Positions 7,337 through 60,301 of a stretch of DNA of 64,000 bases are shown here, one piece after another. Each line of letters starts with the position of its first letter. The first letter of the stretch is position 1. The translations under genes and the position numbers were made by a program. The notes beneath the pieces were generated by a model. It did no database searches. It was given only the letters and a program-made list of their open reading frames with translations, and was not told the DNA's origin. Origin of the DNA: Fragum whitleyi (taxonomy: Eukaryota > Mollusca > Bivalvia > Cardiida > Cardiidae); the NCBI GenBank assembly GCA_948146395.1, contig OX411559.1:25126010-25190009 (forward strand). Reading direction: 5' to 3'.

Positions 7337-7527
7337 AGGGAATGCCCAAGTTCTACCCCTGCAGGTTTTGCCGAAAGTTGTTCCCAAGTCGGGGACTATT
7401 AGCAAGGCACGAAAGAATACATACTGGTGAAAAACCATACGTTTGTAAGATTTGTGGAAAAGGATGTACACAGAAAGGAAACTTGCTAACTCATATGGCA
7501 ACAGTTCATAATGTTTATGATAATTGA
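7337..7527 (+). CDS. Alternative 3'-terminal exon 1: two C2H2 zinc fingers
   Basis: The acceptor is TCATTTTCAG ending at 7336. The exon opens with two bases (AG) that complete a codon, then reads GMPKFYPC and encodes two C2H2 fingers joined by HTGEKPY, ending VYDN and a stop. Finger 1 is C-x2-C-x12-H-x3-H with helix SRGLLAR. Finger 2 is [17 protein letters not shown] with H-x4-H spacing and Cys in place of the usual core Phe. The ATG at 7342 is codon 2 of the exon and a poor candidate for a start. Such a domain alone would be too short for a regulator, so I infer a spliced C-terminal DNA-binding module of a larger protein, probably nuclear. Decayed tandem copies of finger 2 follow immediately. 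It is most like exons 2 and 3. The finger identification is secure; the alternative-exon role is inferred from the array. Confidence 0.88.
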
Positions 7528-7539
7528 TAATTACACTCG

Positions 7540-8200
7540 TATAAAGCCATTATGATGTTTGTGAAATTTGTGGGAAAGGATGGACACAGAAATGACACTT
7601 GCTTACACATTATGGCTACAATTCACAATGTTTATGATAACTGATAACAGTGGTCATTAAAACATAGTATTACATTATGTATGATTTGTTGATAAGGATG
7701 TATACAGAAAGGACACTTGCTAACACATATGACAAAAATTCATAATGTTTATGATAACTGATTACCATGGTCATTAAAACATACATTTTGTATGATTTTG
7801 TTGATAAAGGACACTTGCTTACACATATGACAACAATTTATAATGTTTATGATAACTGATAACCATGGTCATTAAAACATACATTTGTATGATATGTTGA
7901 TAGGATGTACACAGAAAAGACACTTGCTTACACTTTTGGTTACTGTTCATGATGTTTATGCTAACTGATAACAATTGTAACTAAAACTATACATTTGTTG
8001 AATAAGTGTAAAAGAATTACACTAAAGAACACTAAGTCTTGTTATTAGATATAACAACATATCAAAATGTTTATGATAACTGAAAACCATGGTCGGTAAA
8101 AACTATACAATAATAGAAAAAATTACAATCCAAGGAACTTGCTTACTCTTAGCAACAGTTCATGTTTATGTTAAAAGAAAACCATGGCACTGATTTGGCA
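7540..8200 (+). pseudogene. Tandem decayed copies of finger 2 plus 3'UTR of exon 1
   Basis: Five or six units of about 105-115 bp repeat the end of exon 1 and what follows it: 'atttgtgggaaaggatg..acacagaaa..acacttgcttacaca..atg..aca..ttcataatgtttatgataactgata' (starting near 7558, 7678, 7788, 7885 and weaker after 8000). All carry stops or frameshifts. They are probably untranslated and part of the 3' end of the transcript or just downstream. Confidence 0.7.
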
Positions 8201-8261
8201 ATGTTGTTATATGTGGCAACTGATATCCCCATTAATAATACATCAAAATTAATATTTTTAG

Positions 8262-8632
8262 TATCAACTTAAGAAAAGAACTGAAGACCGTTTTCATTTA
8301 TTCTTCAATTCATCTCCAAAGTGATGGCAAGAGGGTCGGTCCTATAGACTCGCATTAAAAAGTTTTGAGAGTACTGGCCACTTATTTAATCATTGTCATG
8401 CTGAGCCAGGAATATTCCTGCTTTGGCAGGAGCTATAGACAAACATCAGCCTGCACATATGTGCAGTCTGATGTTAGCCTACACCACCTGTTTCTGACTT
8501 TCAAACCAGAATTGTCAATAGATTTAATTTTTCAAACAAAAATTAACCTTTAGTTGATAATTTCAGTGCTTTTTTCCCTATGATTTTGATGAAAATTTAT
8601 AGCCAAAAATTAATTAGCATGACAAGGGTTAA
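8262..8632. mobile_element. Foldback sequence followed by MITE E copy 3 (inverted)
   Basis: This repeats the arrangement at 6236-6608: an inverted repeat (8262-8323), then GAGTACTGGCCACTT, then a TTAA-flanked MITE E (8386-8632). Here the MITE runs in the other orientation (CCAGGAATATTCC near the left end). Confidence 0.65.
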
Positions 8633-8689
8633 CTGTCAAATTTTGAGAAAAAAAGTCATACACATCAAGCATTTAACTTGATTGGTAAG

Positions 8690-9300
8690 TGATGTTGCCT
8701 TCATATCTCACATGACGATTGCTTTGGACAAGACCTTTCTGATGGTACCATCTTCAAGGTCATCGGTCAAGCTCAAGTTCATTTTCTAAGGTCAAATTTT
8801 TGTAAAATTAAGATAAGCCATAACTTTGGATAGGTAAGGCCTTGAAATTTCATATACATGTGCATTGCTTGTGACAAGACCTTCACATGGAAATCAATGT
8901 CAAAGTCATAGGTCAAGGTCATTCAGTGGATGTCACTCATTTATGACATAAAAACATTTTGCTTAAACTTTTGATTGGTAAAGGCACTTACTGTATATAA
9001 GTGGTAAAAAGCAACATCTTTATATTGGCTGTTTGGAGAAAACCAGAAATATTATAGTCACTTCTGTGTTGTTTGTGTTGGTGTTTGCTTTGGCCTTGAT
9101 TTTGGGTGTTGGTTTGACAAAATTTAACCTTAGTTATATCTCTGTTGCTATTCGATATATCTTCTTGAAACTTGGCATGTTGTTTCACCATCACAAGAAC
9201 GAACCAGACTGTCAAGGCAGATAATTCTGGAAGCTTTTTTCTAAGAGTTATGCCCCTTTATCAACTTATAATTGTTGCATTATCCAGCATCTACAGGGGA
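8690..9300. repeat. Degenerate tandem repeats rich in 'caaggtcat'
   Basis: This stretch between exons 1 and 2 has diverged repeats ('gacaagacctt', 'aaggtcat.ggtcaag', 'gttatgcccctttatcaactta'). They resemble the internal units of the elements at 1-490 and 58722-59690. No termini are visible, and overlapping ORFs on both strands are chance readings. Confidence 0.45.
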
Positions 9301-58028: not shown

Positions 58029-58181
58029 AATAATTCTATTCACAACAAATAAAATCACATCACTAAACTTTATTAAATTGAATGTACTTGTCGGTTGGAT
58101 CGTGGGGTGCATTTTTGCCGAGCTTGGGTTGTAGTATTGCTTTATAACCAACTGTTTATCCAATGGGAGACTTTTTTTGTG

Positions 58182-58480
58182 TTATCCCCCTTGTTTGTTC
58201 TGTGGATTTAATCAGAGTTACTCCAAAAATCATAAGCGGTCCTATTAGAATTTTTCCTTGGATTTTATGCATGGTTCCTATGGGGATGTTGTGAATTTTA
58301 TTTTCAAAAGTGTAATGGAAAATAAATATTTATTTTAAATCAAATATATCTTACAATTGCGCAATATTTGATTAAGAGCTTATCGTTAAGTCTGATAGTG
58401 AATAGGAAATGAGGATAAAACCCAAGGTACCACCAAAAAGGATTCTTCCTCCTTTTGAAGTATTTCAAGGGAAATAACCA
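58182..58480. mobile_element. MITE family H, copy 2
   Basis: GTTATCCCCCTTGTTTG left and CAAGGGAAATAACC right. The interior is similar to 9818-10156 ('ccttggattttat.c.tggtt.ctatgggga'). Confidence 0.5.
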
Positions 58481-58721
58481 ACCCATATGCCTCATTCGTG
58501 AAACTTTATATAAGCGTTGCCGAACACCATAGGCGTCCGATTGTCTGTAAGTTATAGTGTTTCAATCGGGAACCTTTGGCAATTCTACAGAATGGACCTC
58601 GAGAATAATGAGGGTGCAGACATGAAAGCGCGTCTTATAGCATGTGGTTAATGTGACGTCACAAATATTTCTAAGAATGAAGTTGCAAAATACAAAATCA
58701 ACAAAAGGATAAATTGGACAT

Positions 58722-59690
58722 TTTTATGCCCCGTTATCGAAAGATCGGGGGCATATTGTTTTAGGGTTGTCCGTCTGTCTGTCTGTCCGTCCGTCCGTCC
58801 GTCTGTCTGTCTGTCTGTCTGCAAAACTTAACCAAAAACTTAACATTGCCAATATCGTCAAGCCTTTTCAAGATACAAGGCTCATATTTGGCATGATGAT
58901 AGATCTCAATGATATGCATCTGCTGATACCAAAGTCAAGGTCATGTGACAAGGTCAAGGTCATCTGTCCAGGTAAAATAACTCAAAAACTTAACAAAAAA
59001 ACTTAACATTGCCAATATCTTCAAGCCTATTCAAGATACAAGGCTCATATTTGGTATGATGATAGATATCAATGATACGCGTCTGCTGAAAGATAAGTCA
59101 AGGTCATGTGACAAGGTGAAGTTCATCTGTCAAGGTCAAATAACGCAAAACCTTAACAAAAAACTTAACATTGCCAAAATCTTCAAGCCCTTTCCAGATA
59201 CAAGGCTCATATTTGGTATGATGACAAATCTCAATGATTTGCATCTTCTGATACCAAAGTCAAGGTCATGTGACAAGGTCAAGGTCATCTCTCAAGGTCA
59301 AATAGCTCAAAATACTCAACTAAAAAACTTAGAATTGCCAAAATCTTAAAGCCTACCCAAGATACAAGGCTAATATTTGGCATGATGATAGATCTCAATG
59401 ATATGCGTCTGCATGTACCAAAGTCAAGGTCAAGGTCATCTGTCAAGGTCAAACTTCATAAAAACATTACCAAAAAACTTTCATTGTTCAGATTATTTAA
59501 GCATATTATAGATACCCTGTCTCATAATTGGCATGATGAAAGATCTCAGTGATGTACATTTCAACGGTAGGTATCAAAGTCAAGGTCGAGGTCATCTTAA
59601 AGGGTCAACGTCATCTGTCAAGGTTAATATTTTGAAAAAAGAAGTGCTATTATGGGGGGATTTGTGTTTCACAAACACATCTTGTTTAAT
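58722..59690 (+). mobile_element. HINE-like element K with about 150-bp units
   Basis: The head TGCCCCGTTATCGAAAGATCGGGGGCA is split as TGCCCCG...CGGGGGCA, followed by GTCTGTCTGTCCGTCCGTCC, five units ('cttaacattgccaatatcttcaagcc', 'caaggtcatgtgacaaggtcaaggtcat' in blocks) and a tail TGTGTTTCACAAACACATCTTGTTT in blocks. Short plus-strand ORFs here are repeat units. Confidence 0.7.
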
Positions 59691-60101
59691 TTGATAACCA
59701 AGCGCAGTGTTTTACTGCGTTTTGTCATCAAATTATTATTTGTCCAAAAGGTTTCCAGAGATGATAAAAAAGAATTTACAATTTTTTTTTTCTTCAAGTA
59801 TATTTAATGTCCGACCGAAGTGCCACCAGAAGCAGAATTACCTAAAAATGACCCCAAATTACTACATTTACGTCCGAGGTACTTTCCACTTAACAGAAAA
59901 GTCAGAGCAACTTTCCGAATGATTTAAAGTACTTCCTTTTACCTAGATTTATTCATCATTATATGAACAAAAGTTCTTGTTAAATGGGTGTTATTGAGAT
60001 TGTTATAATTAATGAACGATTTGGGCACAAATTATCGTTAACTAAGCCGAAGTTACAAGGTTTTTTCTTGCGGACTGACAAACTAAATATTTCCATTTCA
60101 G
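59691..60101. other. Intron before exon 9
   Basis: A palindrome AACCAAGCGCAGTGTTTTACTGCGTTTTG lies at 59696-59724 (in blocks). Otherwise no feature. A frame open from 59984 crosses the exon 9 acceptor and is intron read-through. Confidence 0.35.
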
Positions 60102-60301
60102 ACCAGGGCGCCATCCCTAAATTAAAGATGTTTGCATGCGATGTATGTGGTAAAATCCAACAGAGTAAATTCGCCCTCGACACACATACACGTATACATA
60201 CAGGCGAAAAACCATACAAATGTTCTGTATGTGGAAAAGGATTCGCTGCAAAGGGAAACATGAGAACACATACACTGGTACATATACAGAAACAGTCATA
60301 A
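60102..60301 (+). CDS. Alternative 3'-terminal exon 9: two C2H2 zinc fingers, odd first finger
   Basis: The acceptor ATTTCCATTTCAG ends at 60101. AC completes the incoming codon, then QGAIPKLKMFAC, whose IPKLKMF recalls GMPKLYF of exons 1-3. Finger 1 is CDVCGKIQQSKFALDTH-x3-H: zinc ligands intact, core Phe replaced by Gln, as in exon 8 where it is Ala. The linker is HTGEKPY. Finger 2 is CSVCGKGFAAKGNMRTH-x3-H (helix AKGNMRT). The tail is IQKQS and a stop. At least two nearly exact 85-bp copies of the finger-2 end plus 3'UTR follow. The last recognised exon in the window. Confidence 0.88.

Follow-up and report, generated by a model that had tools for sequence, protein, structure and literature searches.

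Do the short zinc-finger exons that stand in a row on one strand of a bivalve contig belong to many small genes, or are they alternative endings of one gene? The question is raised by a 64,000-nt stretch of the Fragum whitleyi genome (contig OX411559.1, here C17; C17:25126010-25190009; hereafter the window), in which an initial annotation had described eleven 3'-terminal exons and proposed a gene resembling Drosophila lola. The window, its surroundings and its own assembly (1.22 Gb, 38 contigs) were searched. Very probably, the window covers the central part of the variable region of a single gene (gene B), in which a common front part is spliced to one of many terminal exons. The exons and their phases, the donor and the acceptors, the paralogy of the front part and its constraint were all observed. 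The case rests on the common donor that was found, on its repeat in a second gene (gene A), and on the genome-wide association of front parts with endings. Below, endings inside the window are given in window coordinates and the front part in C17 coordinates.

The region read comprises the window with 200 kb upstream and 50 kb downstream (314 kb). Two long finger-free frames precede two groups of endings in this region, and comparison of the frames upstream of each group revealed three paralogous exons in genes A and B. Exons 1 to 3 lie at C17:24930904-24931002, 24935828-24935984 and 24939494-24940144 in gene A, and at C17:25083057-25083146, 25084671-25084827 and 25087096-25087809 in gene B. 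The gene B exons thus stand 42952 to 38200 bases before window base 0. Identity between the two genes over aligned residues is 88% for exon 1 and 85% for exon 2, and the intron phases read from the sequence are 0, 1 and 1 in both. Exon 3 of both genes ends in A/GTAAGT (the slash marks the exon end), leaving one base to which the endings supply the other two. The initial annotation had placed a common 5' part upstream of position 1 and predicted a single donor; both were found, the donor after C17:25087809, 38.2 kb before the window, and it leaves exactly the base that the endings need. Gene A repeats the layout, with the same three exons, intron phases and left-over A, and has its own endings. 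With a left-over A no pair of first bases can complete a stop codon, and none of the 39 endings of the two genes does so; a hypothetical left-over T would create an opening stop in the 9 of 39 that begin with AA, AG or GA. Over the first 80 common codons, dN between genes A and B is 0.11 and synonymous sites are saturated. The linker is far less conserved, yet it retains VK[IL]E, IK[IV]E and LEITGVEPG, motifs that we take to be sumoylation-like sites. Both genes have an in-frame TAA upstream of the start Met, at a distance of six codons in gene A and of 38 in gene B.

The eleven acceptors of the window were confirmed on the + strand at the bases given by the initial annotation, and at all of them the open frame starts after two bases. 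The module types also held, namely nine two-finger C2H2 modules and two basic ones. A motif scan of the window counted nine finger pairs (18 fingers) on the + strand, whereas the - strand gave a single chance-like match. All five of the nine finger modules that were scanned against Pfam match C2H2 families. The two-finger endings with stop TGA lie at 7337..7527 (62 aa), 10260..10459 (65 aa) and 48760..48953 (63 aa). Those with stop TAA lie at 13782..13981 (65 aa), 28296..28486 (62 aa), 30505..30719 (70 aa), 38073..38272 (65 aa), 53266..53477 (69 aa) and 60102..60301 (65 aa). One basic ending occupies 20603..20871 (88 aa, stop TGA) and contains no Cys; the other lies at 45738..46048, and neither matches a Pfam family above its cut-off. 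Each exon had been described as closed by a stop soon after its module. The ending at 45738 is more than a short exon: its basic frame is open to 46045 (next stop 46046-46048) but for an in-frame TGA at 45818-45820 that leaves 26 aa before it. This TGA may reflect a fixed loss, a polymorphic site or a mistake in the assembly. A decayed two-finger module with in-frame stops was also found at about 51140..51330 (+).

These eleven endings are a slice, as the same kind of ending continues on both sides of the window. The 314 kb hold 36 strict two-finger frames, all on the + strand. With acceptors ranked by a simple purpose-made score, the window's phase is found at the top-scoring acceptor in 35 of the 36 and among the top two in all 36. 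Sixteen of these frames form the upstream group, gene A (24.960-25.022 Mb), and 20 form the window's group, gene B (25.107-25.227 Mb), nine of them inside the window. Gene B also has the two basic endings and an apparent two-exon ending with five fingers (acceptor 25099569, donor AAT/GTAAGT at 25099769, then acceptor 25101702). It therefore has at least 23 endings over 127 kb, including the interrupted one at 45738, with no downstream limit reached in the DNA read. Gene A, its tandem paralogue, adds 16 for a total of 39. The strict count excludes four frames: 24957370, whose first finger is degenerate; 25099569, whose fingers are spaced differently from the strict pattern; 25101702, which has three fingers; and 25231848, which has many. 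A transporter-like frame, so named by eye, lies at C17:25040505-25041341 (+), between the gene A endings and the gene B front part.

The same data bear on whether the modules are instead separate small zinc-finger genes with their own promoters and 5' exons, like tandem ZNF clusters. Neighbouring modules do show tandem duplication, and four of the nine finger exons in the window (7337, 10260, 13782 and 60102) have an in-frame ATG between the acceptor and finger 1. The earlier description of exons with no credible start is correct for the most part, with these four as exceptions. Separate genes are nonetheless very unlikely: one strand and one phase run throughout, a matching common donor lies upstream of each of the two groups, and no other clear coding front exon was found between front part and endings among the best 130 rows of a codon-bias scan, in which weak exons could be missed. 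That scan of acceptor-led frames of at least 45 codons also gave no further clear exon of the window's phase among those rows, several known endings themselves scoring low; the frame it ranks first is of low complexity and in another phase.

The endings might also be joined by trans-splicing, or shared between neighbouring front parts, instead of by ordinary cis splicing. Genes A and B leave the same base in the same phase, which makes their endings interchangeable, and trans-splicing is reported for lola and mod(mdg4) in the available text of PMC11426971. Neither process is required here, since all strict two-finger frames lie on the strand of both front parts, and we consider this explanation unlikely relative to cis splicing from the donor of each gene.

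The initial annotation expected the common part to carry a BTB domain. This expectation was not supported. Pfam gave no match at E<=1 for either of the two common regions (320 and 302 aa), nor at E<=10 for the conserved 105 aa of the front part. The upstream search for a BTB exon that the annotation had called for was also made: motif patterns find none in 264 kb, and tblastn with two generic BTB sequences gave weak matches alone (E 0.71 or worse among the matches listed). These searches covered the common regions and the neighbouring DNA, and a BTB encoded much farther upstream might in principle have escaped them. A true lola- or tramtrack-type gene whose BTB exon is still to be found would share the layout, many two-finger endings behind one common part, that the accessible part of PMC5127561 describes. 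Such a gene is barely conceivable given that Pfam, patterns and tblastn all found no BTB, that an in-frame stop precedes the gene A start Met, and that an earlier search, as far as the accessible part of PMC11426971 reports it, did not find the lola-type (TTK) BTB in Mollusca. As no BTB was found, the feature that defines the lola type is missing from what was searched. We read the locus as lola-like in mechanism and not in family, a non-BTB variant of the lola design belonging to a family of about 30 genes. Searches for relatives of the N-terminal module among solved structures gave chance-level matches alone (best E 0.13). The best NCBIfam match (E 0.0058) was rejected, as its 16 bits fall below the cut-off of 288.

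The extent of this family was estimated by searching the genome with the first two front exons. Exon 2 has 44 matches, 36 of them at E<=1e-3, and 15 of these 36 are on C17. Exon 1 has 37 matches, all of which lie within 15 kb upstream of a same-strand exon-2 match. Exon 1 is present at 29 of the 36 exon-2 places (30 of all 44), 14 of the 29 being on C17, which leaves about 27 heads with both exons besides genes A and B. In the five other heads that were read, exon 2 keeps its phase at either end. Some heads carry exon 1 in tandem copies, five at C17:24673356-24674579 (-), three at C19:24580243-24580752 (+) and two at C17:14686502 and 14687843 (+), one of the latter with an in-frame TGA; these copies might be alternative first exons.

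Finger exons were sampled as the best 150 matches of 4274 candidates, and the counts given here refer to this sample. Fifty are short-frame matches (open frame of at most 150 codons) and the other 100 are long-frame. C17 makes up 42.2 of 1224.6 Mb and holds 26 of the 50 short-frame matches. Within 200 kb downstream of a same-strand head lie 31 of the 50 short-frame matches and 2 of the 100 long-frame ones. The 31 comprise 26/26 on C17, 3/3 on C4, 2/4 on C12 and 0/17 elsewhere. When strands were flipped, no short-frame match (0/50) lay within 200 kb downstream of a head and one lay within 300 kb; six short-frame matches precede a same-strand head, as an arrangement of heads in tandem would produce. 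Outside the 314 kb region, 19 of the 24 short-frame places on C17 and one long-frame place (L053) were read. In these 20 places, the top acceptor has the window's phase in 17, and the second-best acceptor has it in the other three. Slightly more likely than not, there is a genome-wide modular system: some 30 heads, roughly half of which lie on one chromosome, would have an undescribed N-terminal domain in common, and behind each would stand its own same-strand array of mostly two-finger endings. Endings might be shared between neighbouring heads in such a system, since their phases are interchangeable.

To describe the relationships among endings, a tree of 55 two-finger cores was built. Neighbours tend to pair in it (10260/13782, B17/B18, A11/A12, A1/A2 and A6/A7), as local duplication would give. 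A13, B1 and L037 (35.13 Mb) form a type that groups across three arrays, and because of this grouping the tree suggests that arrays were copied with some endings already in place. Among the 22 closest ending pairs, ten give dN/dS, eleven are saturated and one is identical. Nine of the ten values fall between 0.04 and 0.25, mostly at high dS, and the tenth is 0.53 for 10260 versus 13782. Purifying selection acts on close pairs of endings and on the front part. No two of 36 endings have the same combination at the eight base-contact positions, which were assigned by the usual finger scheme. L045 and L046 (C17:14730245-14731045 and 14738847-14739647) lie 8.6 kb apart and have two-finger cores identical in DNA, which we attribute to a very recent duplication or to gene conversion.

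Tandem repeats were seen at ten endings, where they begin in finger 2 or within 7 bases of it and extend beyond the stop into the 3' part, with periods of 54 to 144 bases. Four are inside the window (7443-7784, 13927-14296, 48920-49179 and 60238-60563) and six outside it (C17: 25006936, 25014854, 25115631, 25124767, 25204438 and 25211954). In a test of 38 endings, which omitted 25099569, the overlap of repeats with endings was 10 observed versus 8.1 by chance, hardly above chance. Their common starting place in finger 2 is unexplained.

Under the proposed mechanism, transcription would begin before exon 1 and continue through the array. The three constant exons encode a conserved module of about 85 aa at the N-terminus, together with a basic stretch and a linker that contains sumoylation-like sites. 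The exon 3 donor would be joined to one of the at least 23 downstream terminal exons of gene B, each of which would contribute two bases and a module, in most cases a pair of C2H2 fingers, followed by a stop and presumably by a poly(A) site of its own. Choice of the terminal exon would thereby set the DNA-binding specificity, while the N-terminal module and linker would stay constant. The N-terminal part probably recruits partners or oligomerises.

Several points weigh against this reading or narrow what supports it. Junction use, the rule of ending choice and the protein function are predictions from the DNA. A poly(A) signal follows the stop in 33 of 39 endings, no more often than expected by chance (30.5), and in DNA this rich in A+T such signals are uninformative. 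No selector or docking sequence was found in the form of a 9- or 10-base word present in at least four of the 39 stretches upstream of acceptors. Three finger frames in the 314 kb (24957370, 25101702 and 25231848) fall outside the simple pattern. The frame at 25101702 has phase 0 and was read as the second exon of the two-exon ending. The one at C17:25231848-25232484 (+), with many fingers and a phase-0 acceptor, stands after the last two-finger ending; it is unexplained, and could belong to a further ending as its second exon or form a gene by itself. Genome-wide, 19 of the 50 short-frame matches in the sample of 150 lie behind no head, and reading through to exon 3, with linker and left-over base, covered genes A and B alone.

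The shared phase itself is also a smaller argument than had been claimed. Sixteen short-frame finger exons from other chromosomes were taken as phase controls. Two (L054 and L059) were dropped as they lie behind a head on C4, and five (L055, L056, L062, L063 and L069) as they have no acceptor scoring above 5; L005, which also lies behind a head, is outside the control count. Five of the nine usable controls have the window's phase and four have another, so this phase is common among finger exons generally. At 5/9 per exon, eleven alike would be expected with a probability of about 0.003. The initial estimate of 1 in 59,000 is too strong because it assumes equal phases. Endings born by duplication have a common phase by descent anyway.

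Among transcription factors, alternative endings are a known feature of Drosophila BTB genes. If the design recurs here with an unrelated front part and has been multiplied into a family, this would point to an independent origin and to scalability. Spliced as proposed, one gene could probably make many different regulators through swappable endings. The modular system, if true, would provide hundreds of DNA-binding specificities by splicing and in this would exceed the alternative-ending genes known to us. Such a family would also explain the density of start-less short C2H2 exons on C17, which gene finders may call as many genes or miss, and would make testable the swapping of two-finger tips on one front part as a general route to regulator diversity. 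No described molluscan case was found in the literature searched, which is weak evidence of absence as subscription journals were mostly outside its coverage.

Like Drosophila lola, this locus has an array of alternative terminal exons that keep to a single phase, a common donor that fits them, and two-finger endings. In the part of PMC5127561 that is available, lola joins a common 5' part to one of many terminal exons, and 17 of 20 isoforms have C2H2 fingers; most isoforms carry two (PMC5127561, PMC11426971, as far as available). The common part of lola has a TTK-type BTB, a type not found in Mollusca according to the same portion of PMC11426971, whereas the front part here is an unrelated module without a Pfam match. 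Moreover, lola is one locus, whereas 29 heads here carry the exon 1/exon 2 pair. According to the portion of PMC11426971 consulted, Drosophila mod(mdg4) is similarly a BTB gene, whose isoforms, at least 30 in number, vary in their C-terminal part; most of them have FLYWCH modules, and trans-splicing is involved, in contrast to the C2H2 pairs on the strand of the head here. The KRAB and FiNZ families also combine a lineage-limited N-terminal module with diverging fingers in genome clusters, as described in the available part of PMC10547256. No Pfam match to a known KRAB-like N-terminal module was found in the common regions, a comparison that did not include FiNZ itself. The same part of PMC10547256 counts frames with at least five fingers, a count that two-finger endings would escape. 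Each gene of those families has its own N-terminal module, whereas here a single front part would be common to many two-finger endings, two front parts standing against 39 endings in 314 kb.

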